Positions 1-21,150 of a stretch of 24,105 nt of DNA are shown in pieces; within the stretch, counting starts at the first letter, position 1, and each line of letters begins with the position of its first letter. Made by a program: the position numbers and the translations under genes. Source of the stretch: Gracilaria domingensis (Eukaryota; Rhodophyta; Florideophyceae; Gracilariales; Gracilariaceae); NCBI GenBank assembly GCA_022539475.1, contig VCMS01000016.1:353558-377662 (forward strand). Reading direction: 5' to 3'. The notes under the pieces are model-generated. The model worked only from the letters and a program-made list of their open reading frames with translations. It did not search any database and was not told where the DNA came from.

Positions 1-93
1 TGCTATTAGTCGCTGGGAACTTGTTGTGTCCTTTTTTTCGCACTGGGAAAGAAAATGATGGTAGGAAACCGCGTAGGACGGCGTGTCCCTCAA
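1..93. repeat. Host tandem repeat, left part of the unit interrupted by the retrotransposon
   Basis: This sequence continues on the far side of the element at 11865. The left part (ttagtcgctggg, ttgttgtgtc) matches the next unit at about 11911-11940 (ctagtcgctggagc, ggttgtgtca). Removing the element and one copy of the 5-bp duplication gives a unit of about 139 bp, close to the next one. The ctcaa at 89-93 is the left target-site duplication. No gene is seen here. Confidence 0.75.
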
Positions 94-649
94 TGTGGTG
101 CAAAACCCTCGACGGGAAAACAACAAGCCGCGTCGCGGACGAGCACCTCAGGGTGTTCAGGCCCTGCTCCCTGTGAAGGGCAGTCGAGCGGCAGAACCCT
201 CCGATAGGGCCAACACGAGCCGGGTGTAAATCCGGGTGGCCCCGATCTGGGCGTGCAGTCGGAGGTAGAAGGGGTAGAATCGGCGTAGGTATCCGGATGG
301 TTCCGGCGAGCCACAGCGAGTGGGGGTATCCAGCCCAACGGTATGGGACGACAAAAGATCAACAAACGAGCCGCACTGCGGAGCACTGACTCGCGATAAG
401 CGGGAAAACTCCCGAGACAAATAAAACAAACCTACAATGTAGGGCAGAGTAGCGAAAGCCGTAAGACGGAAATGACAACAATAAAATAGATAAGAAAAGT
501 GCCGTGACGACGGATTAGTACTCCTCAGGGACGGAGGTTGGTTGATCAGCCCGGAATTGCGGCGGTATTCCCCAGGATGGGGCTGGTGACCGTGCGCAAG
601 CGGCAAGAAGATCAGAGCCAAAGGCCTCGTTGAGGTTTACTTCCCGTAC

Positions 650-671
650 AGTGGCGGCAAGTGCCGCCACT
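650..671 (-). repeat. LTR inverted repeat abutting the TATA box
   Basis: Perfect 9-bp arms (650-658 and 663-671) around a 4-base loop. The same structure is at 11559-11580 and 20391-20412. It overlaps the edge of the TATA motif and covers the predicted initiation region, so it could form a 5'-terminal RNA hairpin or a protein-binding palindrome. Function is inferred. Confidence 0.65.
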
Positions 672-677
672 TATATA
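671..677 (-). promoter_or_regulatory. TATA box of the 3' LTR
   Basis: The minus strand reads TATATAAG within ccgtatataagtggcggc. The motif is conserved in all three LTR copies (11580-11586 minus and 20385-20391 plus). A start site about 25-30 bases downstream would fall near 640-650, at the foot of the inverted repeat 650-671. This sets U3 at roughly 949-645. The start site is inferred. Confidence 0.7.
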
Positions 678-744
678 CGGCACTTGAAAATATCAATTAA
701 AATATCTAACTATCCGGCGCTGCCGGCCAATACACTACAGGTGT

Positions 745-770
745 GCCCCGTGGCATGCTTGCCACGGGGC
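745..770 (-). repeat. U3 hairpin/palindrome
   Basis: Arms of 11 bp (745-755 and 760-770) around a 4-base loop. In the 5' LTR a 10-bp version is at 11656-11665 and 11670-11679. In the solo LTR an 8-bp core stem survives at 20294-20301 and 20306-20313 although the loop and flanking bases differ. It lies about 70 bp upstream of the TATA box, so it is a promoter-proximal candidate binding site. Confidence 0.6.
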
Positions 771-791
771 CCGCGCGATCGGGCCAACTTG

Positions 792-803
792 GCACACGTG
801 TGC
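792..803. promoter_or_regulatory. CACGTG (G-box/E-box type) palindrome in U3
   Basis: The perfect 12-bp palindrome gcacacgtgtgc is present unchanged in all three LTRs (11702-11713 and 20258-20269). CACGTG cores are bound by bHLH and bZIP factors in many eukaryotes. Its place about 120 bp upstream of the TATA box fits an activator site. Binding is inferred only. Confidence 0.45.
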
Positions 804-949
804 AGAAATACTACCCTTCCTAGGCATACCCCAAAATAGGGGCACTACCCCAGTAGCCTCTCATAACCTGAGGTGTCGAAGCCGGTAACGGATCAACAAA
901 CTATGAAAAGCACCTCGGTGCATCCCCACAAAGGGCGTTTTGCTCTACA

Positions 950-962
950 TCTCCCCCTTCTC
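950..962 (-). other. Polypurine tract (PPT) for plus-strand cDNA priming
   Basis: On the minus strand GAGAAGGGGGAGA directly abuts the start of the 3' LTR (TGTAGAGC at 949). This is the position and purine composition expected of an LTR-retrotransposon PPT. The same 13 bases, with two more (15 in all), recur at 2926-2940. Confidence 0.85.
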
Positions 963-1002
963 AGGCTGAGACACCGACTCCGTCGGCTCGATACGCCTCG
1001 CG

Positions 1003-2802
1003 ATGGAGGTATATAAGGAAGTCTCCCAAGACGGGTCTGCCGAGAACTGTTCGGAGCCACCAACACCTCCGGTGTCAGTAGCGAACCTCGTCATCTCGAG
1101 CCCTCCCGCGATGTCCAACGCACCGAACGGCCCTCCGTCCTCGACGGCACGCATGCAAGTATCGAACCCGCCGTTCCGGTCTGTTCCTCTCCCGCAGTCG
1201 GCGGCTGCCTCCCAGCCGGGTTCTTCCGGACAAGATCACGCTCCAGCTCAGGCTGGTCCCGCGCCCGTGTGGGATTGGTTCAACGCCGAGATGCCAGCTA
1301 CGCTGGGTGGATGGCCTACCGCAGGCGCGTTACGCATCCGGGATCCCCACCGGCACAGTTTCCTTTTTGCCCAGGCTCCCTGGTTTGACGCCGAAGCCGT
1401 TCGGGATACAGAGCTCGTCGACTCGTACGCTGTCGACGGTCAACTCCCTGGTGGGCTTCCTGCTGACGTTACCCGTTCATGGGACTGGATCGCCCGCGTT
1501 GCGGTTATACCGAGCTGCCTGTTTGTAGGTCGAAACGAGACGAGACAATTCGCTCGCAATGAGATGGCCCGCATTGGGTACGCGCGACACTTCCGAGCTC
1601 CGAACGAACATCCGGTGCCGGCACAGTACCAGTACGATGTGGCACGTTACCGAACTTTCGGCGAGGTCGGCTACGGCGACCATCTAGCCAACGCGTTGGA
1701 CGAAATTGACCGATATTCGGATACCGTTCAGCCGCAGCAGGAGTTGATCCTGTGGGCGCGGCCGATCCTTCGCGCCGAGTTCCGGTTCCTTCGCCGTCCT
1801 GGACGGTCTCAATTTCATGAAGGCCTCCGCTTCGAGAGGAAATGGCGTTCCCGCTTCGGGGTACTGGTGCCGTACCAGTGCACGGAGGTGGAACGCATTG
1901 CGCGTCACTCCCATACTGGGCGATACCTGCCGCTGCCGTCATTCTGGCCTGCGGTCGAAGTCCCACGAGGGTGTCACGTAGAGCTACCGCCCTGCCTAAC
2001 TTACATAGGCTCGTACTTCATGAACGATCCGCCTCGCGGCCTGTGGAGCATCCTGGCAACAGAATGGACCGTCCGCGTTGCGGCTTTCCTCCTCATCGAG
2101 GCATATGATTCGTACCGAGTTTGGTTCATCCCGGAACTCATCCGGCAAGCGATCCGAGCGTTGGATCTCTCCGAAGTGCTCGGCTCGGTCCGCAATGCGC
2201 GCGAAGCCACCGCGTTGGTGGACGTCATTGACCAGATTGACTGGAATGAGGTGCCTGCTAGTCAGGTTTCCGACGGGGTCCGTCGGCAGTCGGACCGTTC
2301 TCCCGGACGGAACGTCAACGCCGGCGACTTCGTATACTTTGACCCATGGATTTGGGAGGTAATTGGTCCCGCTGAGGCGGCTGGTCGCCGCCGAGAGGAG
2401 CGATATATCCCGGAAGGGCACCCGCGTGGGTTCGTATACGTCGACGATGACGGTGATGACCCTGCAGAGGGAGGAAGTCCCATGGATGAGGGGAGCCCAG
2501 TGGGGGTTGCCTCGGAGCCCGACACTACGGGAGATGACGACGAAGTCGTGATCGTTGACCCACCCGCTGTAGCGGCTCCCGCTCCGACCGGCCCGTGGGC
2601 TCAGGATGTAGCATCCGCCGTGGGCGGCAGTTCTTCTCTCACTCCGCGAGCGGCGGTCATTCGCGACTTCCTTCGAGGCGTGGGAGTGGCCGTTCCCGAT
2701 ACGGTGACCGACGAGTCGGAGTTGCAAGCAATAGCGGCACAGCGCTTCTCCGGGGCTCCCGGTAGTGGGGGCACCCCAGGTGCTGGGCCGTCCGGCGCGT
2801 AA
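1003..2802 (+). CDS. Antisense accessory ORF of the retrotransposon, unknown function (599 aa)
   Basis: This ORF lies on the strand opposite gag-pol, between the end of pol and the 3' LTR. I recognise no family. Residues 1-85 are Pro/Ser/Ala-rich and probably disordered. Residues 88-450 look folded, with many Trp, Tyr and Arg and clusters such as WDWF (about 89) and DFVYFDPWIWEVI (about 442). An acidic low-complexity stretch follows (about 480-515, DDDGDD and DDDEVVIVD). A short helical segment may close the protein (about 546-583). There is no zinc knuckle, protease, envelope or transmembrane signature. The start at 1003 has G at -3 and G at +4; an alternative ATG is at 1111. Codon and base use resemble gag-pol, so it has probably been resident a long time. 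Antisense extra ORFs are known in some plant Tat-type Gypsy elements, but I cannot claim homology. That it encodes a real protein is likely; its role is unknown. Confidence 0.8.
   Translation: MEVYKEVSQDGSAENCSEPPTPPVSVANLVISSPPAMSNAPNGPPSSTARMQVSNPPFRSVPLPQSAAASQPGSSGQDHAPAQAGPAPVWDWFNAEMPATLGGWPTAGALRIRDPHRHSFLFAQAPWFDAEAVRDTELVDSYAVDGQLPGGLPADVTRSWDWIARVAVIPSCLFVGRNETRQFARNEMARIGYARHFRAPNEHPVPAQYQYDVARYRTFGEVGYGDHLANALDEIDRYSDTVQPQQELILWARPILRAEFRFLRRPGRSQFHEGLRFERKWRSRFGVLVPYQCTEVERIARHSHTGRYLPLPSFWPAVEVPRGCHVELPPCLTYIGSYFMNDPPRGLWSILATEWTVRVAAFLLIEAYDSYRVWFIPELIRQAIRALDLSEVLGSVRNAREATALVDVIDQIDWNEVPASQVSDGVRRQSDRSPGRNVNAGDFVYFDPWIWEVIGPAEAAGRRREERYIPEGHPRGFVYVDDDGDDPAEGGSPMDEGSPVGVASEPDTTGDDDEVVIVDPPAVAAPAPTGPWAQDVASAVGGSSSLTPRAAVIRDFLRGVGVAVPDTVTDESELQAIAAQRFSGAPGSGGTPGAGPSGA
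1010..1017 (+). promoter_or_regulatory. Possible TATA box on the antisense strand
   Basis: The plus strand reads tatataag within gaggtatataaggaag, overlapping codons 3-5 of the antisense ORF. If used, transcription would begin near 1040 and the protein would start at the ATG at 1111. If transcription starts inside the LTR instead, the ATG at 1003 is available. The motif is identical to the LTR sense TATA box. Use is speculative. Confidence 0.3.
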
Positions 2803-2908
2803 TTCCCCGGCTCGCGATCCCCTACGGGCTCGGTAGTCCGCATAGACCCCGATGATGAGGGGCGACTCAATAGTTAGAGGTAAACTTCTCCAGCCGTGCT
2901 GGCTTGGC

Positions 2909-3127
2909 TCAACTCTTCGTCTTGCTCTCCCCCTTCTCAGTGGGCAATACCTCGTTTGAGGCTGTTGCGAATGGCCCACAAGAGAGGGGTAACTTTTCCG
3001 CACAAGCGGCTGTAGCGATAAAACTTCTTAGTCTTCTTCCAGTTTCCTGGCTTCTTCTCCTTCTTCTTAGGCTTCTTTCTTCTTTATCTTCTTCTCCACT
3101 GTAAGTGGCTTCCGCATTTCGCGGCAT
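2909..3127 (-). CDS. Possible small Arg-rich sense ORF downstream of pol (72 aa)
   Basis: An ATG-started ORF in the sense direction, 181 bp downstream of the pol stop. Its middle is strongly basic (a run of five Arg within SLRRRRRSQ, then GRRLRS) after an acidic GEEDKEE segment. Such a patch could be a nuclear or RNA-binding signal. The codons come from the low-complexity purine tract, and the ORF end overlaps the internal PPT, so chance is a serious alternative. It would need a subgenomic or spliced mRNA. Confidence 0.2.
   Translation of the reverse strand: MPRNAEATYSGEEDKEERSLRRRRRSQETGRRLRSFIATAACAEKLPLSCGPFATASNEVLPTEKGESKTKS
2926..2940 (-). repeat. Second, internal copy of the PPT sequence
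   Basis: This is 15 bases identical to 950-964 (tctcccccttctcag on the plus strand). With the terminal PPT it brackets the antisense ORF. A 14-base match is at 4644-4657 and a one-mismatch match at 7848-7861, both inside pol. It could act as an extra plus-strand primer site or be a relic of the old 3' end. Confidence 0.65.
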
Positions 3128-3308
3128 GTTTGTTCAGCGAAAAGCTGTCCGCTTAGAGCGGCCTGGTCCGCCTGAGGCGGCTAAGTGATCTCGAGTTAAC
3201 TTCAAGTTGCATCCGCTTGACGCGGCATATTCTTGCGTAATGCAATACTGTCCGCATGAGGCGGCATATTCCGTCTGGGACGGCTGTGCTCAATAGAGAC
3301 GTGGGTGG

Positions 3309-6300
3309 TCAACCCACTTGGGCCTTGTCCAGCGTAGCCGGTATCGGTGTCCGTGTGCGACGGTGGTACTGCAAGACCTTCGAGCGAGGCAAGTGCTCAA
3401 TGGGCTCGTGCGTATCCTCTGAAGAGGCGTAGCCGTACCAACGGACTCGATACAGTAGTTCCCCGTCAGGGGCGTAGCCGTGACTTATCAGACGGTCAAT
3501 GACATACTCCTCATCGAGGACCTTCCGCGCAGGATGCGGCTTTGTCGATGTATCCTCTCTCGAGGTGTCGTTGTTACCTCTCCCGTCGTGGGCTTCATTG
3601 GTTACTTTCGGCTTCCGTCCTGACGGCAAGACATCCTGTACGCCAGGCGAGAGCCATTTTGACCATGGTGTTTCCATGTCATTCCGGCTTCCAGAGTTCT
3701 GGCTTTCCTTCCCGTATTGTCGGGCTGTTACCGAGCTTCGGTGTTCTCGAATAGCGAGCTTCCGGCGTTCCGGCAAGATCTCCCGAAGTGAGGGTGAACG
3801 GTCCGCAATGCGGTGTGCCAGCGAGTGGTGCCGTGGCACGTGCCGAGGCGACGCCTTGCCAAGCATTGCTGGCGGTGGGGCCTGCGCCGTTGCACGGCTG
3901 TGCGTTGCCGATTCAAATTCGGAATTTCCGTTTCCGGCGGCCGCAAGCCTTACAGCGGGCACGTGCCCGGCTCGTGTGTTGTCACCCTCCACTGGAGGCG
4001 GATCGCCGGCGAAGCCAGACACTTGGCGCAGCGTGCGCGCGTGTGCAGCGTTGGGCTGCTGCCCACCTACTGTGGCATGTCGGCCTGCTGTTGCGGCGGT
4101 TGCCTCCGTGTTTTCAACGGCTTCATTACTCGATGCTTCAATAAAATCTCCCGAAATCGGGTCTGCCGTAACAACACGGTCTTTCTGGACAGGCTTCTTT
4201 TCCGGTCTTCCGGCTTCTTTTGACGCGAGTGCGCTGCCGCTGCCGGGCTCCGACTGCGGCGGGCATGTACTTTCCGCATTCGACGTGGCTGCTGCGGTGG
4301 TTACCACCCTCTTTTCCGGCGTACCGGTCTCACGCTGCACAGCTGGGGCAGGCTCTTGTCCTTCCGTCTGTGACGGCCGTACAGTGCTATCCGCGGGCGA
4401 AGCGGCGACTTCTGCAGCAGCTACATCCTGGTGTTCTTCCGGTTCTCCGGCTTCGTGCTCCACCGAAGTGGTGCGTTCCTCTTTAGGCTTCCGCGATAAC
4501 TGCGCGTTTCTCGCTTCTTTCCGAATCTTCGGCTGTACGTCGCGCGTCCGCGTGCTTTCACCACGACTTGCGTGCGGCCCGGAGGCCTGCAAAGGCACTT
4601 CCGTCGACGACGGCGACAACGAAATCGAGCGACTTACCTCCTCCTCCCCCTTCTCAGTTGGAGCGTCGGGGGTGGTGGTGAGTATCCCCTGAGGGGCCAG
4701 TATCCGCGTGTGGACATGTGCGGCGTTCGAGACTGGCGGGTTAGCTTCCGGCTTTGCCGGCAAATCAGCAAGTCCGCGGCTAGGATGCGGCAGGACTGAC
4801 AACGAAGCGCGCTCTCCCGCTGTCGCGGCTTGGTCCACAGTAGGCGTAGCGCTGTCCGGCGTTTCCGGTTGCTTTTCCTGACGAACAGGCTGTGGCGCAG
4901 GCGTTACGCGATCGCGCGAAAAACGCTCGTGTTCACCCTCAATATCGAGGACAACCGTTGTATCGGTGATAGAAATAACCCTGTAGGGGCCGTCCGCGAT
5001 AGGAGAGAGCTTATGCCTCTTCTCCTTTTCCGGGTTATAGTATTCCTTCCGTAGGAAGGCGTAGTTACCTTCCCTGATCTGAGGGGCATCCCTGCGCATT
5101 CGTGCGTCGAAATTCCGCTTGTACGCGGCTTGTGCCTTATCGATGTTTTGCCTAACTGTAGGAATGATGTTCTTAAGCCAGGCCTTCCAGGCGTCCCTGT
5201 GTAGACGAGGCGAGGGGAACTTATCCAAAGTTGGCTGTGGCTCGATAGCCACCGAAGGTGGAACGCGTGATAGCACAAGCTCGAACGGCGAGATCTGAGT
5301 AGTGCGATGAACCTGCGTATTGTAGGCATATGTCACCGCATCGGTGTATTGATCCCACTCCGACGGATGTTCGGCAACGAATGTCCGTAATGCATTGAGC
5401 ATTGTGCGGTTAAAACGTTCAACCTGCCCATTACTCTGGGGGTGGTATGTTGTCGTAAACCAGTTTTGGATCCGCAAGATGCGGCAAACGTCCTGAAAGA
5501 ACTTAGCCGTAAACTGCGGTCCATTGTCCGATAACAGGTCAATCGGCGGTCCGTAGACAAAAACCCAGTGTGTAACGAAAGCTTGGGCGACCGCACTGGC
5601 GGTAACCTTCGTCAAAGGCACAGTCCGTACCAGTTTAGAAAAACGGTCGGTGATCACAAGTAGAAACCGGTTTCCCCGGCGAGTGCGGATAAACTCGCCG
5701 AGCAAGTCAATTGCCACGAATTCAAGTGGAGCCCTGGCAGGGAAGAGTACCAACTTCTTGGAGTACTTCCGCAGTTTGACGCGGTTCTTCGCGCAGTCAG
5801 AACATCCACGAACAGTGGCATACGCGTCGAAAGCCATTGCTGGCCAGTAAAAGTCCTTCCGTAAGGTGTAGTACAACTTCCTGCCACCAGGGTGGGCTGA
5901 CAACTTCGCGTAGTGCGACAAATGCAGTACTCGTGACTGAAGTGAGTGCGGAACCACAATCTGTGGCCTGTTTCCGACGGTTCGGATTAGAAATCCTTGG
6001 TCGTTCTCGACGAAAGGCAACTGTGCTCCACCGTTTAGGCGACTACGAATCTCCGTACAAAAACGGTCGGTGTGCTGCTCCCGGATGAGTTCCTCCGGCT
6101 TGATCGGTACGAAAGAGCCCGGTTCGGGTTGCGTGTCAGACACGGCTAAAACAGCATCGTAGATGTCCCATCCTTCCGATTCTTCATCGGCATCGCTCGA
6201 GCCGTCTTCCACGAGGAAGCACGGTATCTCCAGATCATCGACTGGCGCAGCTTCAGCCGCTGTTTCCAAGCGGGACAGTGCATCAGCCTGAGTGTTCAGG

Positions 6301-8519
6301 AGTCCTTTCTTGTAACGGATTTCGAAGTCGAATTCCGACAAGCGAAGTCTCCACCGCATCAAGCGGCCAGATGGCTCTGCTATAGAGAGTAGCCAGCGTA
6401 ATGCCGAATGATCGGTATGGACAATGAAGCGGGTCCCCATAAGATAGGGCCGCAGTGTCTGTAACGCCCAGACAACTGCCAAGCACTCCTTCTCGGATAC
6501 CGAGTAATTCCTCTCGTGAACGTTGAGGCTCCTTGACCAATACCCAATTGGCAATCGCTCGCCATCATTGGTGGTCTGGAATAGGGCACAGCCGACTTGG
6601 TAGTCGCTCGCATCCGTATCTACTGCATATGGCAAACCAGCCCTAGGCAGGGATAAAACAGGTGGCGATGTCACCGCGTCCACGAGCGACGAGAAAGCCG
6701 CGACCTTGCGGTTGTCGAATTCTTCCAGATCGACTGGCTGGCCTTTGCGAAGAAGCTCGTTCAGAGGTGCAGCGATATCCGCAAAGTTCGGAATGAAGCG
6801 GCGATACACATTGCACAAGCCGAGAAAAGATCGGAGTTCCGTCTGCGTCCTCGGATGCTTAGCCTCTTTGAGGGATTTCACGCGTACTTCGTCAATCGAA
6901 AGCCGTCCCGGACGGATAACATGGCCGAGATACCTGACGGTTTCGGTAAAGAACTCACACTTCTTGAGCTTGAGCGTAATGCCTGCATCGCGTAGGACTC
7001 GCATCACATCCCGTACGTGGGTCAAGTGCTCATCCAGGTTGCTGGAGTAGACAATGATGTCATCCAGGTATACCAGGCAAGTCTTCCACTTAAAGCGGGC
7101 TAGCAAAATATCCACAGCTCGTTGAAAAGTGGCTGGCGCGTTCGTTAACCCAAAGGGCATCCGATTGAATCGGTACAATCCTTCATGACAAACGAAGGCT
7201 GTCTTGTCACGATCCTCAGCCCTCACGGGAACTTGCCAATAGCCCCAATTCGCGTCTAGGGTTGTGAACACTTTCGCGTCGCCCAATGAATCGATGCATT
7301 CATCCATTCGTGGGATAGGATACACATCCTTGACCGTAGCCGCGTTTAGCTTGCGGTAATCGATGCAAAATCGCCAAGACCCATCAGCTTTGGGCGCGAG
7401 CACCACCGGCGATGCCCAAGGTGACTGAGCCGGCTCGATAACTCCAGCGCGGAGCATCTTCTCAACTTGAGCTTTCTCCTCCTGCCGAGCTGTCGGTCCT
7501 GCCCTGTAAGGGTGCTGTGAAATGGGCCGAGTATTCGGTAGCAAATCAATCCGATGTTCGGTAATACCAATCTTACCCAGTGTGCCATCCCACATGGGCG
7601 TGAACTCCTCAAGCATGTGCCGCAATTTATCGCGGTGAGTCTCTGGGACATGTTCAAGATCCAGAGACTCCAGTTCCTGTACTGCCTTATCCTTCGTGTC
7701 AGCAGCACTCAGGTCCGTATCATTACTGTCCGACGAGGTCGGCATTGCCTCCTTCGACAGGCTGCGGTTATTTGCATCCGACGAAGTCGGCGTAGCATCT
7801 TCCGACGAACTGTTCGGTCCAGTCGTTTCGGAATTGTTCCGTTCCGCCTCCCCCTCCTCAGCTTCGAGGATTCCGAGAACCTCGGCAATAGAAACCTGAG
7901 TAGGCACTATAGCCGCAGGGTGCGGAAGCAACGAACCAATAACTTGGCTCCTAACCAACCGTTGAGAAAAACGGCTGAAGTTCGCAACCAGCACCTGAAA
8001 AGGCTTCTCGGGTTCGACGAAAACAATCCCATTAGCGAGGGCAAGCTGATGCTTCTCCTGTAACGCAGGCAACGGTTGTACCGTTTGTAAGCCACATTGT
8101 GGGGAGGTCACAGTAACCCAGACCTGTGATTCAGGCGGGATGGAAATGGGCCGAGCTACTCGGAGCTTTGTAGACTTCCGTTCATCGGCTGTAGGCTTCT
8201 GTGCCGCAGGCAAAGGGACTTGCTTCTTCAGAGCCCGGCGCAGGGGACGCCGAACGATCGGTACAGTAGTCCCATCTTCCATTTCGATGGTTCGCTTCCG
8301 CGGTCGAATTGCATCGACGAAGCGGTCACAGAAGTCGCAGCCGAGGATAACCGGCGCAGCGAGTTGCTTGCAAACCAAGAAATCGAGCTTCGCCACGTAG
8401 CGGCCAAGCCTGACGAGCAGGTCTATTACTCCCACAGTCGAAAGTGGCCGATTGTTCGCATCCGCTATGTCAATCTGCGGCGCCGCACGAACGCGAGACC
8501 GCAAGTGCGGCGGAATCAT
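3309..8519 (-). CDS. pol: Pol polyprotein: protease C-terminus, RT, RNase H, integrase, chromodomain (1736 aa)
   Basis: Copies and integrates the element. Domains in order: C-terminal half of an aspartic protease (residues 1-75, VILGCDF); Ty3/Gypsy reverse transcriptase (about 325-510) with YLDD at 484-487; RNase H (about 625-740) with Asp634 in DTDASD and HTDHSA around 703; integrase with an HHCC zinc site (His869, His876, Cys906, Cys909) and a D,D(35)E core at Asp938, Asp998 and Glu1034; a GPY/F module near 1177-1179. A Pro/Glu/Ser/Thr-rich linker of about 460 residues (1200-1660) follows. The C-terminal chromodomain keeps the three cage aromatics Tyr1672, Trp1694 and Tyr1697, which in HP1-type domains bind methylated H3K9. 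The protease catalytic DTGA is not in this frame but just upstream in another one (8470-8838). A TGA lies immediately before the ATG at 8519. Apart from that break the frame is open. The linker is much longer than usual for chromoviral integrases. Confidence 0.95.
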   Translation of the reverse strand: MIPPHLRSRVRAAPQIDIADANNRPLSTVGVIDLLVRLGRYVAKLDFLVCKQLAAPVILGCDFCDRFVDAIRPRKRTIEMEDGTTVPIVRRPLRRALKKQVPLPAAQKPTADERKSTKLRVARPISIPPESQVWVTVTSPQCGLQTVQPLPALQEKHQLALANGIVFVEPEKPFQVLVANFSRFSQRLVRSQVIGSLLPHPAAIVPTQVSIAEVLGILEAEEGEAERNNSETTGPNSSSEDATPTSSDANNRSLSKEAMPTSSDSNDTDLSAADTKDKAVQELESLDLEHVPETHRDKLRHMLEEFTPMWDGTLGKIGITEHRIDLLPNTRPISQHPYRAGPTARQEEKAQVEKMLRAGVIEPAQSPWASPVVLAPKADGSWRFCIDYRKLNAATVKDVYPIPRMDECIDSLGDAKVFTTLDANWGYWQVPVRAEDRDKTAFVCHEGLYRFNRMPFGLTNAPATFQRAVDILLARFKWKTCLVYLDDIIVYSSNLDEHLTHVRDVMRVLRDAGITLKLKKCEFFTETVRYLGHVIRPGRLSIDEVRVKSLKEAKHPRTQTELRSFLGLCNVYRRFIPNFADIAAPLNELLRKGQPVDLEEFDNRKVAAFSSLVDAVTSPPVLSLPRAGLPYAVDTDASDYQVGCALFQTTNDGERLPIGYWSRSLNVHERNYSVSEKECLAVVWALQTLRPYLMGTRFIVHTDHSALRWLLSIAEPSGRLMRWRLRLSEFDFEIRYKKGLLNTQADALSRLETAAEAAPVDDLEIPCFLVEDGSSDADEESEGWDIYDAVLAVSDTQPEPGSFVPIKPEELIREQHTDRFCTEIRSRLNGGAQLPFVENDQGFLIRTVGNRPQIVVPHSLQSRVLHLSHYAKLSAHPGGRKLYYTLRKDFYWPAMAFDAYATVRGCSDCAKNRVKLRKYSKKLVLFPARAPLEFVAIDLLGEFIRTRRGNRFLLVITDRFSKLVRTVPLTKVTASAVAQAFVTHWVFVYGPPIDLLSDNGPQFTAKFFQDVCRILRIQNWFTTTYHPQSNGQVERFNRTMLNALRTFVAEHPSEWDQYTDAVTYAYNTQVHRTTQISPFELVLSRVPPSVAIEPQPTLDKFPSPRLHRDAWKAWLKNIIPTVRQNIDKAQAAYKRNFDARMRRDAPQIREGNYAFLRKEYYNPEKEKRHKLSPIADGPYRVISITDTTVVLDIEGEHERFSRDRVTPAPQPVRQEKQPETPDSATPTVDQAATAGERASLSVLPHPSRGLADLPAKPEANPPVSNAAHVHTRILAPQGILTTTPDAPTEKGEEEVSRSISLSPSSTEVPLQASGPHASRGESTRTRDVQPKIRKEARNAQLSRKPKEERTTSVEHEAGEPEEHQDVAAAEVAASPADSTVRPSQTEGQEPAPAVQRETGTPEKRVVTTAAATSNAESTCPPQSEPGSGSALASKEAGRPEKKPVQKDRVVTADPISGDFIEASSNEAVENTEATAATAGRHATVGGQQPNAAHARTLRQVSGFAGDPPPVEGDNTRAGHVPAVRLAAAGNGNSEFESATHSRATAQAPPPAMLGKASPRHVPRHHSLAHRIADRSPSLREILPERRKLAIREHRSSVTARQYGKESQNSGSRNDMETPWSKWLSPGVQDVLPSGRKPKVTNEAHDGRGNNDTSREDTSTKPHPARKVLDEEYVIDRLISHGYAPDGELLYRVRWYGYASSEDTHEPIEHLPRSKVLQYHRRTRTPIPATLDKAQVG

Positions 8520-8838
8520 GATTCAACCAAAAATTTGGCCCAGCTCCTGTATCGAGCACGGACAACTGCCGAACCATGTACTGGTCGGAAACACCCAGGT
8601 CGGCGTAAACTTTGTAGTTACGTTTCGCCATGACCAGGACTCTATCCGGGAACCGGCTGTTCTTAGACCGTATCCACGGGCGACGCAAGACACCAAGGTG
8701 CTCAGAGTCCACGTCTGTAGTGGCCAGTTTCCTCGAAAGGATTGTGACCGGGGAGCGAGGCTTCTCAGCCTCAGGCGCACTAAACCCCGTCGCTGGGGGC
8801 GCCTCTCCATTGCTGGAGGCTCCCTTGCTCAGTTTTTC
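8470..8838 (-). CDS. pro: Protease N-terminal segment in the -1 frame (catalytic DTGA)
   Basis: After the gag stop, the -1 frame stays open for about 122 codons and encodes LSVLDTGAGPNF. This carries the DTGA active site of retroviral-type aspartic proteases (catalytic Asp codon at 8551-8553). The frame then ends at 8470, out of register with the rest of the protease, which begins with IPPHLR in the pol ORF. The gag end reads CAG AAA AAC TGA, so the run at 8838-8832 (G AAA AAC) is a near-canonical -1 slippery site with the stop right after it. Entry by -1 frameshifting from gag is plausible. Return to the pol frame needs a second shift (+1 net), or reflects small indels in this copy. There is no ATG near its start, so independent initiation is unlikely. 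Confidence 0.75.
   Translation of the reverse strand, partial: EKLSKGASSNGEAPPATGFSAPEAEKPRSPVTILSRKLATTDVDSEHLGVLRRPWIRSKNSRFPDRVLVMAKRNYKVYADLGVSDQYMVRQLSVLDTGAGPNFWLNHDSAALAVSRSCGAAD
8829..8838 (-). promoter_or_regulatory. Putative -1 ribosomal frameshift site at the gag end
   Basis: Sense-strand CAG AAA AAC TGA: the heptamer G AAA AAC (8838-8832) precedes the gag stop (8831-8829). AAAAAC is the core of well-known -1 sites. Here the P-site slip would need a G-U pair. A GC-rich stretch able to fold (gcctcc with a later ggagaggc, and ggcgcc repeats) starts about 11 bases downstream. The -1 frame is the protease frame, which supports the idea. Confidence 0.5.
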
Positions 8839-10838
8839 TGAGCGTCGCCGCCAATCTGCGGAGGTTGCGATTCCGCAGGGGCGGCTACAGTTCCACCATT
8901 CGATGGCACCGTTTCCTGGTTTCCAGGCTGAGTCTCCGCCTTCGCACGAAGGTACGATTTGTCGGGAACACGTTCCCGCTCGGCGGGCGTCAACGACTCA
9001 TACTGAGGCACTATCTTCGCCATATCCCGTATGGGCATTAAGCAATTCGGAGCGATGTGCCCTGGCCTGTAACAGGTATGACAAATAAGGTGACGAAGAA
9101 GATCCGCGTTGGGCGGCCGGCGCTCCTGTCGAGGAGGATACGGGTCCCTCCATCCAGGGCGTTGGCTTCGATATCCGCCAGAGTGCGGCACGGGCAATGC
9201 CGGGACTTGACGTCCGGCGTACAGAGCGGGGTCTCCGTCCACTGTAGACTGCTCCGTCGTCGACGGCAATTCCGAACTCGGCATTGAACCATCGTCCTGT
9301 AACAGGTGCAGGTTATCATAACCCCCTTGAACAGAACCTCGCGAGTGAGGCAGTGAGGAGTCTCGGCCTTCTACATGAAGGAGTCGGCGCGTGCGCGCCT
9401 TGATACCAGTGCGTGCTCGAGCTGCATCTCCCTCCGCTTGGGCAAATTGAACGAGTTCCAGATAGGTAATCCGGCGTTTGTTCTCCCGATAATGGGCTAC
9501 CAACGTCCGAATTGATCGGTCCAGTCCATCAACAAACATCGTACACCGCTCGGCTGCGGAGAACACGTTGCCACATCTGTGGAAAGCCTTATTGAGGCGG
9601 GTCGAATAAACGGTTTCCGACTCTTCGGCTCCTTGCTTCGTGTCTCGTAGCGCGAGTATGGCACCTTGTATCGCATTGCCTGTCGCGTAAGAGCGCAGGA
9701 GATATTGTACCGCTTCCGGCCAGCACGTAACTCCTCCTTCGGAGGCGCGAGACGACCCACGAACCGAATTGAATTGATCTTCGGCTACACCCGTCAAAAA
9801 GTACGGCAGCGCGATGTAGGCCTGTGCCTCACTCATCCGAAGTACATCGGCTTCCGCTACGAAGCGGCTAAGAAAATCCAAGACAAGAATTGGATCTTCC
9901 CCAGAGAACTTGTGGGGCTTTAACGTGAGCTCCATTTGTCGGAGATGATTTCGCACTTTGCCAGTCCCACGTGGGGTCCTCTGTGGCGTCGTGTCATCAA
10001 GCCGATAATATCGGTAAGATAGTAGCTTCCGATACAGTAAGTTTGTCGGCTTCAACTCCTTCAATCCGAGGTGTCTCCGTCCTTTCGTACGGCCTCGTGC
10101 AACGCCAGAAGTGGCTTCAGTAGCCCGCGAACGGGATGCACGATAGCGAGAGCGCTCTTCCGCGCTGTCCGAAGAGTCGGTAGACGATCCCTTTTTGGGG
10201 CCCTCCTCATCAGAAGAGGATGAAGAAGACGAGTCAGACTCAACCTTGACCTTCTTCTTTGCCGGACGATCCCGGGAACGGCGCGAGTGCTGAGAACCCT
10301 CAGAAACCGGGGCTCCCGGCGCAACAGCATCAGATACGATGATTTGCTCGACCGTCTCCAGACGGGTAGCCAGGCGGTCCAGGCGTGCGGCAGCCTGCTC
10401 GTGCAGACCAGCCGACACCTGTCGGTGTTCCATAATCTGGTTGACATCAGACCGTAAAACACGGACGTCGCTCGAAACATCCCGGACACCGGCTTCATCG
10501 AGCCGTTGCCGGAGTTTCGTAATGTCCCGGATGAGGCCCACTTGGGAGTTCTGCAGGATGCGAACCTGAGCCTCTAATTCACGGAGGGTATACTCGTCGG
10601 ACCGCGACGACATAACGTCAACCGCTGCGGCGGCATCAGCCGCAGGTGCGGTTTCAGTTGGCCCACGAGTGGGTGGGGTCCCGTTATCAGAACGGCGGCC
10701 CCGGGAAGCCGGTTTCGGGTCGCCATTGCCTGGGACCTCCAGTGCGTCCTTCGGCAACGGAGGCAAACTTGCCGGCAAGCCGGACGAACCGGGCACAGAA
10801 GCGGCACGTGGCGCGCCACTCCTGCGACGGGACGACAT
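8829..10838 (-). CDS. gag: Gag polyprotein with CCHC zinc knuckle (669 aa)
   Basis: Structural protein that forms the virus-like particle and binds element RNA. Residues 1-75 are Pro/Ala/Ser-rich. Residues 82-168 form a probable coiled coil (RELEAQVRILQNSQVG onward). A basic SV40-like nuclear signal (PAKKKVKVE, 192-200) is followed by an acidic serine run (201-213). The capsid-like region lies around 300-480 and is followed by a zinc knuckle, C-X2-C-X4-H-X4-C, at Cys586, Cys589, His594 and Cys599. The ATG at 10838 is the first in the 164-nt leader after the LTR. The protein is longer than many Gypsy Gags because of the N-terminal coiled-coil and SR/acidic part. It ends at AAA AAC TGA, a likely frameshift site into the protease. 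The frame is fully open. Confidence 0.92.
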   Translation of the reverse strand: MSSRRRSGAPRAASVPGSSGLPASLPPLPKDALEVPGNGDPKPASRGRRSDNGTPPTRGPTETAPAADAAAAVDVMSSRSDEYTLRELEAQVRILQNSQVGLIRDITKLRQRLDEAGVRDVSSDVRVLRSDVNQIMEHRQVSAGLHEQAAARLDRLATRLETVEQIIVSDAVAPGAPVSEGSQHSRRSRDRPAKKKVKVESDSSSSSSSDEEGPKKGSSTDSSDSAEERSRYRASRSRATEATSGVARGRTKGRRHLGLKELKPTNLLYRKLLSYRYYRLDDTTPQRTPRGTGKVRNHLRQMELTLKPHKFSGEDPILVLDFLSRFVAEADVLRMSEAQAYIALPYFLTGVAEDQFNSVRGSSRASEGGVTCWPEAVQYLLRSYATGNAIQGAILALRDTKQGAEESETVYSTRLNKAFHRCGNVFSAAERCTMFVDGLDRSIRTLVAHYRENKRRITYLELVQFAQAEGDAARARTGIKARTRRLLHVEGRDSSLPHSRGSVQGGYDNLHLLQDDGSMPSSELPSTTEQSTVDGDPALYAGRQVPALPVPHSGGYRSQRPGWRDPYPPRQERRPPNADLLRHLICHTCYRPGHIAPNCLMPIRDMAKIVPQYESLTPAERERVPDKSYLRAKAETQPGNQETVPSNGGTVAAPAESQPPQIGGDAQKN

Positions 10839-11002
10839 CGTTCACCGACACAGTCGGCCAATGGGCAACCAAAACAACTTCCGAAAACGGACAATGAGAG
10901 AACCGTAAGAACGGATATTCCCAGCTATCTGGGCTCCAAACAAACGAACCAACTCCAACGAACGTTGGCCAATTAAGCCGATTCTAAGTCGGGAGACCAG
11001 TT
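10839..11002 (-). other. 5' leader between the LTR and gag
   Basis: 164 nt of untranslated leader containing the PBS. No ATG precedes the gag start in the sense direction, so scanning ribosomes that pass the U5 region could reach gag. No other motif is recognised. Confidence 0.7.
10979..10999 (-). other. Primer binding site (PBS), tRNA not identified
   Basis: Three bases inside the 5' LTR the sense strand begins TGGTCTCCCGACTTAG, complementary to a tRNA ending CTAAGTCGGGAGACCA. The implied tRNA layout is sensible: CCA, discriminator A, acceptor strand TCGGGAG, T-stem strand CTAAG, then a T-loop ending CGATT. That gives 21 possible base pairs. It is not the initiator-Met PBS common in plant elements. 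The GGGAGACCA end resembles fungal tRNA-Tyr, but I cannot assign it. Confidence 0.7.
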
Positions 11003-11859
11003 TGTGGTGCAAAACCCTCGACGGGAAAACAACAAGCCGCGTCGCGGACGAGCACCTCAGGGTGTTCAGGCCCTGCTCCCTGTGAAGGGCAGTCGAGCGG
11101 CAGAACCCTCCGATAGGGCCAACACGAGCCGGGTGTAAATCCGGGTGGCCCCGATCTGGGCGTGCAGTCGGAGGTAGAAGGGGTAGAATCGGCGTAGGTA
11201 TCCGGATGGTTCCGGCGAGCCACAGCGAGTGGGGGTATCCAGCCCAACGGTATGGGACGACAAAAGATCAACAAACGAGCCGCACTGCGGAGCACTGACT
11301 CGCGATAAGCGGGAAAACTCCCGAGACAAATAAAACAAACCTACAATGTAGGGCAGAGTAGCGAAAGCCGTAAGACGGAAATGACAACAATAAAATAGAT
11401 AAGAAAAGTGCCGTGACGACGGATTAGTACTCCTCAGGGACGGAGGTTGGTTGATCAGCCCGGAATTGCGGCGGTATTCCCCAGGATGGGGCTGGTGACC
11501 GTGCGCAAGCGGCAAGAAGATCAGAGCCAAAGGCCTCGTTGAGGTTTACTTCCCGTACAGTGGCGGCAAGTGCCGCCACTTATATAGGGCACTTGAAAAT
11601 ATCAATTAAAATATCTAACTATCCGGCGCTGCCGGCCAATACACTACAGGTGTGCCCCCGTGGCATGCTTGCCACGGGGCCCGCGCGATCGGGCCAACTT
11701 GGCACACGTGTGCAGAAATACTACCCTTCCTAGGCATACCCCAAAATAGGGGCACTACCCCAGTAGCCTCTCATAACCTGAGGTGTCGCAGCCGGTAACG
11801 GATCAACAAACTATGAAAAGCACCTCGGTGCATCCCCACAAAGGGCGTTTTGCTCTACA
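11003..11859 (-). repeat. 5' LTR of the retrotransposon (promoter copy)
   Basis: 857 bp and nearly identical to 94-949. This copy drives the genomic transcript on the minus strand from the TATA box at 11580-11586. Differences from the 3' LTR are one base beside the TATA box, one extra c at the U3 hairpin, and one substitution at 11789. All three fall in the U3 part. Confidence 0.96.
11580..11586 (-). promoter_or_regulatory. TATA box of the 5' LTR
   Basis: The minus strand reads CCCTATATAAG. The TATATAAG core is intact although the base just upstream differs from the other two LTRs (c to g on the plus strand). Gag starts about 740 bases downstream. Confidence 0.75.
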
Positions 11860-12075
11860 CTCAAAGAAATGCAACGTTGTGCTCCTGGTAAGACAACCCA
11901 TATCCGAGGTTGTCACTAGTCGCTGGAGCTGGTTGTGTCAGTTTTTATAATAGGAAGGATAAAATGCTGAACAACACGCGTTGGACCGCGAGTCCTCAAA
12001 GAAATGCAACGTTCTTTTCCTGGTGAGACAACCTGCGTCTGAGGTTGAAATTACTGGCTGGAACTTGTTTTAGTA
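11860..12075. repeat. Host tandem repeat continued (period about 135 bp)
   Basis: 11860-11864 is the right target duplication, ctcaa. The string ctcaaagaaatgcaacgtt at 11860 recurs at 11995, a 135-bp period. Parts cctggtaagacaaccc and cctggtgagacaacc match likewise. A third, partial unit starts near 12045 (ttactggctggaacttg). The units are clearly diverged, so the array is older than the insertion. Confidence 0.75.
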
Positions 12076-16665: not shown

Positions 16666-16942
16666 GAAGTAGCTAAAACGCGATAAAGAATGGGCTGTAG
16701 CGACGAAACGAGTGCGATTTGGGGGCTGAAATTAGACCGAGAGGTAGATTTGTTTGGCCTCTTTCGATTGCATACGGCAAATAGGTCGTCGATGACGGAA
16801 AGAGCCGGGGGTTTTCGGGGGTTTGTACTGTGGTTTAGGGTGAGATTTGTTATTTGACGCAGTCTAAGGGTTTGGACAGGTGGCGTGAGCGTTTGTACCA
16901 ATGTTTGTGGAGGTATTTAGGACCGTATTGAGATCGCTAATG
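16666..16942 (+). repeat. 277-bp direct repeat, copy 1
   Basis: Identical to 17621-17897 apart from one base (t at 16908, c at 17863), with start-to-start distance 955 bp. It begins gaagtagctaaaacgcg and ends gatcgctaatg. The ends are not TG/CA, and I see no target duplication, PBS or PPT around the pair, so an LTR pair is not supported. Both copies keep the same open frame on the minus strand, without a recognised product. Confidence 0.9.
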
Positions 16943-17620: not shown

Positions 17621-17897
17621 GAAGTAGCTAAAACGCGATAAAGAATGGGCTGTAGCGACGAAACGAGTGCGATTTGGGGGCTGAAATTAGACCGAGAGGT
17701 AGATTTGTTTGGCCTCTTTCGATTGCATACGGCAAATAGGTCGTCGATGACGGAAAGAGCCGGGGGTTTTCGGGGGTTTGTACTGTGGTTTAGGGTGAGA
17801 TTTGTTATTTGACGCAGTCTAAGGGTTTGGACAGGTGGCGTGAGCGTTTGTACCAATGTTTGCGGAGGTATTTAGGACCGTATTGAGATCGCTAATG
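17621..17897 (+). repeat. 277-bp direct repeat, copy 2
   Basis: Second copy of 16666-16942, with one substitution. Flanking bases on both sides differ from those of copy 1, so the repeat boundaries are sharp at single-base level. Confidence 0.9.
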
Positions 17898-18335: not shown

Positions 18336-19265
18336 TCAAATCCCTCCCATCCTTCTCTCCTCCTGTCCCCTCAGAATCCCCTTCGCAGTCCGCGCTACCT
18401 CCGACGCACTCCTAAACCCAGTCACCACCGGAGCTCCCACTCCCACCCGCGGCACCTCCTCCACCACCTTCTTCATCTCCTTACGCCTCTTCTTCAGACG
18501 GCTCTTCCCATCCCCAACCCCACCACCCTTTGTCTTCGGTGTCACAGGAGACCCCTTCTGCACCGCCACCCTTCCCACACTTCCCTTCTCCGTCTTTCCC
18601 TCCACACCTCCTTTCACCGTCTCCTCTTCCACCAATCTTTGCCTCTTGCACAGCTCCTTCACCTCCTTCTCCAGCACGTCCAACCTCTCGTTCAGAACCC
18701 TATTCTCCTCCCGCAACTCTCCAACCTCCCTTCCCGCACACTCCACTATCCCATACACATGATTTCTCATCTCCACTCCCAATACCGACAACGAATTTCG
18801 CAGGCTCGAAATCGCCTCAACCGAAACACCACTACCACCCCCACTCAGCACCACACCGCCCATTTCCGTTACAATCTCCACAATTCCATCGTCCAGTTGC
18901 TCCTTCATCACCAACCCCAACATCCCCACCCTCGCCTTCATCTCCCCCACAAACCGCATCTCCCTGTCACCCTCTCCGCCCCCACTCTCTATCTGGTCTC
19001 CAACCTCTAACTGACTCAGATGCACCGCACCCCTTCTCTCCATTGCGACCCCCTCCACCTCCAATTCTACCCCCTTCTCCACCTCATCACCATCCCCTCT
19101 CCTCGCCTCACACTTCTTTCCTTCATCAGCCACTTCCTTCTTCTGCGACATCCGACCAGCCGCCGTAATCACGTCCTCTTCCCGCTTTGGTGACGGCGTC
19201 TGCGGTACCTCCTTCCCCTCCAACAGCACCCACAGCTCCTCATCCTTCACGTATCCGTTCGACAT
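18336..19265 (-). CDS. Unclassified leucine-zipper coiled-coil protein (309 aa)
   Basis: Start chosen at the ATG at 19265, which has A at -3; the longer open frame upstream lacks an ATG. Residues 25-110 are Glu/Lys/Gly-rich. A heptad leucine series at Leu184, 191, 198 and 205 (ELREENRVLNERLDVLEKE) predicts a dimerising coiled coil. A basic cluster, SRLKKRRKEMKK (255-266), looks like a nuclear signal. No basic DNA-contact region sits directly before the zipper, so it is not a classical bZIP. The family is unknown. It may be a host protein or the first ORF of an unrecognised mobile element, since repeats lie just downstream. The coding strand is purine-rich, so the opposite strand shows long C/T-rich open frames that are artefacts. 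No intron or partner gene is evident. Confidence 0.5.
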   Translation of the reverse strand: MSNGYVKDEELWVLLEGKEVPQTPSPKREEDVITAAGRMSQKKEVADEGKKCEARRGDGDEVEKGVELEVEGVAMERRGAVHLSQLEVGDQIESGGGEGDREMRFVGEMKARVGMLGLVMKEQLDDGIVEIVTEMGGVVLSGGGSGVSVEAISSLRNSLSVLGVEMRNHVYGIVECAGREVGELREENRVLNERLDVLEKEVKELCKRQRLVEEETVKGGVEGKTEKGSVGRVAVQKGSPVTPKTKGGGVGDGKSRLKKRRKEMKKVVEEVPRVGVGAPVVTGFRSASEVARTAKGILRGQEERRMGGI

Positions 19266-19898: not shown

Positions 19899-20110
19899 CT
19901 AACCAACCTTTCGAAAACCTGCTATGACATGAGCTGGGTTACTCGAGCCAAAGATGGCAGATCCTGCAACTGAAATGTTTGCACCGGCCTTCACTACTCC
20001 TTTCACAGTACTCAGTCCAATACCCCCATCCACCTGTATCCCTATTCTTGCGTACAACTCCCTTGCATGTCGCACCTTGTCAAGAACACCCTCCATAAAC
20101 GCCTGTCCTC

Positions 20111-20968
20111 TGTAGAGCAAAACGCCCTTTTGTGGGGATGCACCGAGGTGCTTTTCATAGTTTGTTGATCCGTCATCGGCTTCGACACCTCAGGTTATGA
20201 GAGGCTACTGGGGTAGTGCCCCTATTTTGGGTTATGCCTAGGAAGGGTAGTATTTCTGCACACGTGTGCCAAGTTGGCCCGATAGCGGGTGCGCCGTGGC
20301 AAGCCTGCCACGGTTGCACACCTGTAGTGTATTGGCCGGCAGCGCCGGATAGTTAGATATTTTAATTGATATTTTCAAGTGCCGTATATAAGTGGCGGCA
20401 CTTGCCGCCACTGTACGGGAAGTAAACCTCAACGAGGCCTTTGGCTCTGATCTTCTTGCCGCTTGCGCACGGTCACCAGCCCCATCCTGGGGAATACCGC
20501 CGCAATTCCGGGCTGATCAACCAACCTCCGTCCCTGAGGAGTACTAATCCGTCGTCACGGCACTTTTCTTATCTGTTTTATTGTTGTCATTTCCGTCTTA
20601 CGGCTTTCGCTACTCTGCCCTACATTGTAGGTTTGTTTTATTTGTCTCGGGAGTTTTCCCGCTTATCGCGAGTCAGTGCTCCGCAGTGCGGCTCGTTTGT
20701 TGATCTTTTGTCGTCCCATACCGTTGGGCTGGATACCCCCACTCGCTGTGGCTCGCCGGAACCATCCGGATACCTACGCCGATTCTACCCCTTCTACCTC
20801 CGACTGCACGCCCAGATCGGGGCCACCCGGATTTACACCCGGCTCGTGTTGGCCCTATCGGAGGGTTCTGCCGCTCGACTGCCCTTCACAGGGAGCAGGG
20901 CCTGAACACCCTGAGGTGCTCGTCCGCGACGCGGCTTGTTGTTTTCCCGTCGAGGGTTTTGCACCACA
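20111..20968 (+). mobile_element. Solo LTR of the same retrotransposon family
   Basis: 858 bp, inverted relative to the LTRs of the full element, TG...CA, flanked by the perfect 5-bp duplication tcctc (20106-20110 and 20969-20973). No internal sequence is present, so it arose by LTR-LTR recombination. It differs from the full element's LTRs at roughly ten positions, concentrated in U3 (20172-20176 and the hairpin region 20283-20315). The R/U5 part is almost unchanged. So it is a related but distinct insertion. Confidence 0.95.
20385..20391 (+). promoter_or_regulatory. TATA box of the solo LTR
   Basis: TATATAAG within gccgtatataagtggcgg, identical to the 3' LTR of the full element. A transcript from it would run rightward toward the gene at 21480, on the same strand and about 1.1 kb away, so it could act as an ectopic promoter. 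Confidence 0.55.
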
Positions 20969-21150
20969 TCCTCCAAATTCTGGCTCCACCGTCATCAACA
21001 ATAACATGTCTACAACTCCTTCCTTCATAAGTGCTTCTACGACCTTTATAGACGTATTCGGGCGCAATCCAACTCCATTCTTTTACTTATGGCAATCCGA
21101 GTGAAGCTATAAAACCCGTTCACCTCATTTATGAAGCCAAAATGGCTCCT

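Follow-up and report, generated by a model that had tools for sequence, protein, structure and literature searches.

The long ORF that lies antisense to gag and pol of an LTR retrotransposon in Gracilaria domingensis, within the 24,105-nt stretch of DNA analyzed here (the window), is a real protein-coding gene. It is retained in many copies, occurs in four element families and in other species, and carries the mark of purifying selection in its own frame. We consider it likely that it is a true accessory gene belonging to a lineage of red-algal chromodomain Ty3/Gypsy elements and encodes a putative trans-acting regulator or counter-silencer, translated from an mRNA that would start in the 3′ LTR.

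An Antisense ORF Adjacent to the 3′ LTR in a Chromodomain Element

A preliminary description of the window had claimed a 599-codon ORF on the strand opposite to gag-pol of a chromodomain element, and this is exactly what we find (table 1). The two LTRs of the element differ at three positions and have, on the sense strand, the termini TGTAGAGC at the start and GCACCACA at the end. Within pol, Pfam matches were obtained for RVT_1 (1.1e-37), RT_RNaseH (3.7e-36), Integrase_H2C2 (2.7e-12), rve (4.5e-10), and Chromo (8e-07, at 1672–1720). The Gypsy order of RT, RNase H, and integrase, the C-terminal chromodomain of pol, the two LTRs, the TSD, the PPT, and a PBS called from its position and TGG start only identify the element as a chromovirus.

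Table 1. Coordinates of the retrotransposon, its genes, and parts of the antisense protein in the window.
Feature	Position	Strand	Remarks
LTR retrotransposon with both LTRs	94–11859	−	Delimited by LTRs and TSD
TSD, left copy	89–93		CTCAA, 5 bp
3′ LTR	94–949	−	856 bp; inner U3 part adjoins the antisense ORF
Polypurine tract (PPT)	950–964	−	Adjoins 3′ LTR; purine run 950–962
Antisense accessory ORF	1003–2802	+	599 aa, ATG start; flanked by pol and 3′ LTR
Conserved core of the antisense protein	1378–2442	+	Residues 126–480 (∼355); most invariant columns in alignments of 6 and 8 sequences
Short C-terminal stretch of the antisense protein	2638–2751	+	Residues ∼546–583; two predicted helices
pol	3309–8519	−	RT, RNase H, integrase, C-terminal chromodomain (Pfam)
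gag-like ORF	8829–10838	−	669 aa; weak sub-threshold zinc-knuckle match (E 0.3)
PBS-like stretch	10984–10999	−	Adjoins 5′ LTR; called from position and TGG start only
5′ LTR	11003–11859	−	857 bp
TSD, right copy	11860–11864		CTCAA, 5 bp

The antisense ORF reads toward pol, and its ATG is located 40 nt beyond the purine run of the PPT. With a length above 600 bp, a location in the interval between pol and the 3′ LTR, and an orientation opposite to gag-pol, it has the characteristics of the antisense aORF-3R class known from plant elements. The surrounding region has a GC content of ∼60%, which lengthens chance ORFs and could favor an open frame that arose by accident, or by an assembly artefact, on a non-coding strand. 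However, in 2000 first-order Markov simulations of positions 950–3308 the longest ORF in any of the six frames had a median length of 135 aa, with a 99th percentile of 276 and a maximum of 441 aa, compared with 599 aa in the real sequence. Together with the homologues in other species and families and the purifying selection described below, which are decisive, this leaves such an origin with a practically negligible probability.

A protease-like DTGA motif, recognized by eye at 8400–8900 (− strand) just upstream of pol, is in a frame that differs from the rest of pol, whereas in a copy of another family (L061, family 2; see below) the protease motif and pol are read through in a single frame. 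The window copy, whose antisense ORF is intact, thus probably has a broken pol gene. Allowing up to two mismatches, the PPT motif has six matches in the window, four of them inside the element (chance mean 0.24): the terminal one at 951–964 and internal copies at 2927–2940, 4644–4657, and 7848–7861, all on the − strand. Because comparable purine tracts are found in or near pol of other families (L061, 1945–1961 and 5079–5093; L062, 4356–4372; L063, 634–647), the internal tracts may, by analogy to central PPTs, serve as extra plus-strand priming sites.

The remainder of the window contains a solo LTR of the same family (20111–20968, + strand, TSD TCCTC), which splits a stretch matching ribulose-phosphate 3-epimerase; the flanking PF00834 matches are both on the − strand (1.7e-12 at 19902–20108 and 3.7e-05 at 20969–21073). 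A 277-bp direct repeat of 100% identity (16666–16942 and 17621–17897, 955 bp from start to start) possibly represents the LTRs of a small element, or else a duplication. An ORF of 309 aa at 18336–19265 (− strand), rich in E, K, and V, gave only a sub-threshold Pfam match and may be a repeat, since L062 contains sequence that looks similar by eye.

The Antisense Gene Is Found in Many Copies, Four Element Families, and Other Species

In the G. domingensis genome (77.9 Mb, 680 contigs), 73 places out of 1352 first-look candidates were scored and show 94–100% identity, the window's own copy included. Internal stops, for which the preliminary description had suggested a comparison with the neutral frequency, are absent from 52 of these 73 places and occur at least once in 21 (counted by hand), so this check gave no refutation of the gene. 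Outside this genome, at least five database relatives with 30–66% identity were recovered from about 8000 scored candidates, namely those sharing most words with the query, a selection by which more distant relatives may be missed. The three of these five that carry a source name come from Gracilariopsis chorda, a red alga of the Gracilariales, and Agarophyton chilense, which we take to belong to the same order. The gene thus occurs in many copies here and also in further species, as do the members of the aORF-3R class. Genes of such elements can be annotated as “hypothetical proteins” of the host (P0001, BWQ96_10156).

Using the distant homologues as queries, we identified further families in the G. 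domingensis genome that bear a homologous antisense ORF, in addition to the family of the window copy (family 1). For three of them, one copy each was examined: L034 for family 2 (with its pol in L061), L062 for family 3, and L063 for family 4. The antisense proteins of the four families are 41–49% identical to each other. Pol identity among families 1, 2, and 3 amounts to 68.6–70.7% over the pieces compared; the pol fragment of family 4, in which no chromodomain was seen, shows 55% identity over 83 residues. In L034/L061, L062, and L063, the ORF is again found past the 3′ end of the pol piece and runs opposite to it. Upstream of the ATG, all four families show an LTR-like terminus, the PPT complement, and the ATG in that order. 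On the ORF strand, the terminus reads CTCTACA, CTCTACA, CACTACA, and CTCCACA in families 1–4, and the purine run is separated from the ATG by 40, 66, 66, and 51 nt, respectively; in families 2–4, where a second LTR was not seen, the LTR end was judged from the resemblance of this terminus. These comparisons show that in the four examined families the ORF has a fixed place, in antisense orientation and directly behind the 3′ LTR, and that the antisense gene predates their split.

Two mosaic copies were encountered in family 1 (L002 and L022), which have nearly the ORF of the window but a pol C-terminus that is about one-quarter different. A block of 16–20 differences just past the ORF stop (equivalent to 2803–2952 of the window) was observed in 10 of the 29 other family-1 copies, with 19 differences common to the four copies compared. 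Both observations suggest template switching between element subfamilies.

The Antisense ORF Is under Purifying Selection

The ORF of the window was compared with that of L064, a copy of 5% divergence that was picked for having no stop. The NG86 method gave a dN of 0.025 and a dS of 0.126 (ratio 0.195). Synonymous changes account for 53 of the 85 differences, compared with 24.0 expected if the differences are placed at random in a CpG-aware manner, and this number was reached in none of 4000 simulations. One of these differences was scored as a stop as a result of splitting codons with two changes, L064 itself being stop-free. An omega-like ratio calculated for the same pair is 0.24 overall, with 0.15 for the N-terminus, 0.26 for the core, and 0.35 for the tail.

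In family 2, 223 variants were counted among 30 copies. Here, variants shared between copies comprise 30 synonymous and 23 nonsynonymous changes and no stops (omega-like 0.36), whereas variants of single copies comprise 113 nonsynonymous and 53 synonymous changes and four stops (0.89). Within the core, the shared variants are 21 synonymous and nine nonsynonymous (0.24). The N-terminus gave 0.67 over 53 variants and 1.08 for 12 shared ones, the tail 0.98 over 56 variants and 0.31 for 11 shared ones; constraint in family 2 is hence clear only in the core. If the shared variants are read in the other five frames as controls, the omega-like values are 3.08, 1.35, 2.44, 1.84, and 0.35. The last value belongs to the antisense frame that has its wobble positions in common with the ORF, and four stops occur in this frame among the 53 shared changes.

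A corresponding picture was obtained for family 1, for which 30 copies (27 distinct sequences) were used: 26 synonymous and nine nonsynonymous changes and one stop are shared (0.26), and 22 nonsynonymous and 15 synonymous changes are confined to single copies (0.66). At the protein level, the family-1 loci are those that match the query best, so that copies with few replacements are favored; this bias is smaller for family 2, whose loci were picked with a query of only 37% identity. For comparison, singletons in the family-1 pol C-terminus have a value of 0.97 and shared variants one of 0.88, in a count that includes the window twice, many indels, and two mosaics. In family 2, the value for the small chromodomain ORF is 0.68, based on 41 variants in 27 or 28 copies, which are too few to weigh.

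A dN/dS near 1, the other check suggested beforehand, was thus found neither in the pairwise NG86 comparison nor for the shared variants of the two families. The contrast between shared and singleton variants is the one expected if selection operates while elements spread and dead insertions then decay neutrally, and we conclude from these patterns of substitution that purifying selection on the antisense ORF acts on the copies that spread. Because selection is visible for individual copies, either the product may somewhat prefer its own copy or there may be few source copies.

Features of the Antisense Protein

The Pro/Ser-rich N-terminus of the protein is probably disordered. It is followed by the conserved core, which is rich in aromatic residues and Arg, an acidic linker (residues 481–545, pI 4.05), and the short C-terminal stretch with predicted helices at 548–559 and 571–582 (block-mean pLDDT of 70–74 across residues 551–580).

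That the protein contains no recognizable domain, as stated in the preliminary description, holds for the libraries tried. No Pfam domain was found at E-values up to 10 in the whole protein, in three pieces of it, or in eight family members, and the C-terminal piece alone had no Pfam match either. NCBIfam contains no domain matching the antisense protein, PHROGs returned only one weak match (E 0.093) of unknown function, and the best E-value against PDB sequences, using the single protein as well as a profile, was 1.9. A match to E3_binding (E 0.029) in only one of the eight members was judged to be due to chance. No relative was detected in viral contigs (20 pattern matches) or prokaryote contigs (51). 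The AlphaFold2 model based on six sequences has a mean pLDDT of 39.8 for the whole protein and 36.6 for the core, and only for residues ∼101–200 and 551–580 of the whole model does the block mean rise to 53–79. Foldseek comparison of the whole model with the PDB gave 17 matches at E ≤ 10 and none at E ≤ 0.001, with a best probability of 0.07. Given the low pLDDT and the lack of a Foldseek match at E ≤ 0.001, the fold gives no support to any function. A basic cluster resembling a nuclear localization signal and common to the eight proteins was not found.

A Model for Expression and Function and Its Alternatives

In our model, transcription of the antisense mRNA would be initiated within U3 of the 3′ LTR and proceed toward pol. 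From the anatomy we infer that the 3′ LTR contains an antisense promoter, because in each of the four families the ATG lies just 40–66 nt from the PPT. A sigma-70-type scan of positions 600–1100, which is not meant for eukaryotes, returned no promoter-like and one terminator-like site. Translation of this mRNA would yield an accessory protein of about 600 residues that would act in trans, with the nucleus as the most likely site, and help the element by regulating its expression or by countering host silencing. This role as a trans-acting regulator or silencing antagonist is a guess by analogy to the antisense ORFs of plant elements.

A protein of this kind could also restrain rather than support its element. 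In Ty1, the Gag-derived p22 acts as a self-limiting factor, and conserved accessory proteins can either favor or oppose transposition; the sign of the effect is not given by our data. Nevertheless, selection on the copies that spread is more simply explained by a gene that helps transposition, and the family is numerous, with 73 family-1 places scored, so that a factor limiting the element's own copy number appears unlikely. A particle protein or one resembling an envelope, gained to allow passage from cell to cell or between species, would fit the location insofar as env of retroviruses occupies the interval between pol and the 3′ LTR. But the orientation of the ORF is antisense, and no clear membrane segment is apparent from hydropathy, by which the highest 19-residue Kyte-Doolittle mean is 0.85–1.52 in the eight members. 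By strand and hydropathy, therefore, neither the sense orientation nor the transmembrane helices of Env-like proteins are seen. Moreover, cysteines are few (2–8 per protein in the eight members), and there is no relative among phage-protein families or viral contigs, collections that represent the envelopes of eukaryotic elements poorly. We regard this origin as very unlikely.

The layout of the element implies convergent antisense transcription toward pol, and a possible action of such transcripts as dsRNA has been discussed in a review (PMC7264820). The antisense RNA might then be what matters, pairing with the genomic RNA and controlling copy number or triggering silencing, while the ORF would be incidental. 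This is improbable in view of the selection on the amino acid sequence in the frame of the ORF, with a dN/dS of ∼0.2 and low omega-like values for shared variants, and of a protein identity between families that was kept despite saturated or near-saturated synonymous sites. An RNA role may exist alongside the protein role. A similarly small probability is assigned to a more specific proposal, by which the red-algal chromovirus lineage independently invented its own antisense protein, of new fold and expressed from the 3′ LTR, as a lysine-poor adaptor of the ubiquitin system. Such an adaptor would deliver a host restriction factor to this system without becoming ubiquitylated itself, which would make it a convergent counterpart of retroviral accessory proteins. 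Lysine is indeed rare, with 0–10 K compared with 42–56 R per protein in the eight members. In families 1–4, we found 2, 9, 0, and 10 lysines compared with 8.8, 14.7, 10.8, and 15.7 expected from the position-specific base composition, which explains part of the scarcity. The depletion is significant in family 3 (P = 2e-5) and family 1 (P = 0.007) and marginal in families 2 and 4 (P = 0.08–0.09), and lysine-gaining variants are not depleted. The lysine argument is thus weak, and the literature on lysine deserts, in the portions available (PMC10169902, PMC10665810), is a lead, not evidence. We favor an accessory protein that would act in trans in support of its element.

Comparison with Known Antisense Genes of Retroelements

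The preliminary description had called this an unknown antisense gene similar to the antisense ORFs of plant Tat-lineage elements and possibly undescribed for a chromodomain element. The likeness is supported and extends to the layout of fungal Boty elements; with these plant and fungal precedents, the antisense layout itself is not new. As far as seen in the open-access literature, the protein family and its red-algal chromodomain setting are new: among the matches listed, no open-access title or beginning of an abstract describes antisense ORFs from elements of red algae (subscription papers being outside the scope of this search), and the terms “Gypsy,” “LTR,” and “retrotranspos” have zero occurrences in the available part of a red algal genome paper (PMC12502185). 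Our results indicate that antisense genes beside the 3′ LTR arose or persisted in red-algal chromodomain elements, far from the plant and fungal cases. The clearly selected orphan protein family provides material for asking what antisense accessory ORFs of retrotransposons do, and the LTR/PPT layout common to four families makes the predicted antisense promoter directly checkable.

In HTLV, an antisense promoter resides inside the 3′ LTR, according to the accessible text of PMC7264820. The antisense gene HBZ of HTLV-1 is comparable in arrangement and belongs to an unrelated host and element; its 3′ LTR promoter is stated in that source, whereas ours is inferred only from the anatomy. The same text lists fungal Boty elements with an antisense layout (PMC7264820). 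The antisense gene brtn of Boty in Botrytis and Sclerotinia is likened to ours by layout only, and no fungal-named protein appeared among the scored relatives of the antisense protein (∼8000 candidates). Chromoviruses of the plant Tekay lineage, as described in the available part of PMC11728184, carry a conserved 5′ aORF whose product is proline-rich and largely disordered. They share with the red-algal element an extra conserved ORF in a chromodomain element, but theirs sits at the 5′ end and not antisense before the 3′ LTR, and the likeness is one of description.

The closest counterpart is aORF-3R of the plant elements Retand, Grande, and RIRE2, described in the accessible sections of PMC11963269 and PMC7264820 as a large conserved antisense ORF that is located between pol and 3′ LTR and retained in most copies. 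These sources give its function as unknown, with a regulatory role proposed, and report the Grande protein to be nuclear (PMC11963269, PMC7264820); in maize Grande, the antisense gene has its own promoter upstream (PMC7264820). No match to TRP28 (PF04195), the family of the plant proteins, was obtained for the eight members by hmmscan against Pfam-A at E-values up to 10, a search in which the HMMER filters drop most weak matches. Retand is described as a non-chromovirus, whereas pol of the red-algal element ends in a chromodomain, which sets it apart from the Retand lineage. Both have in common a large antisense ORF in the interval from pol to the 3′ LTR, conserved among the copies of the respective element.
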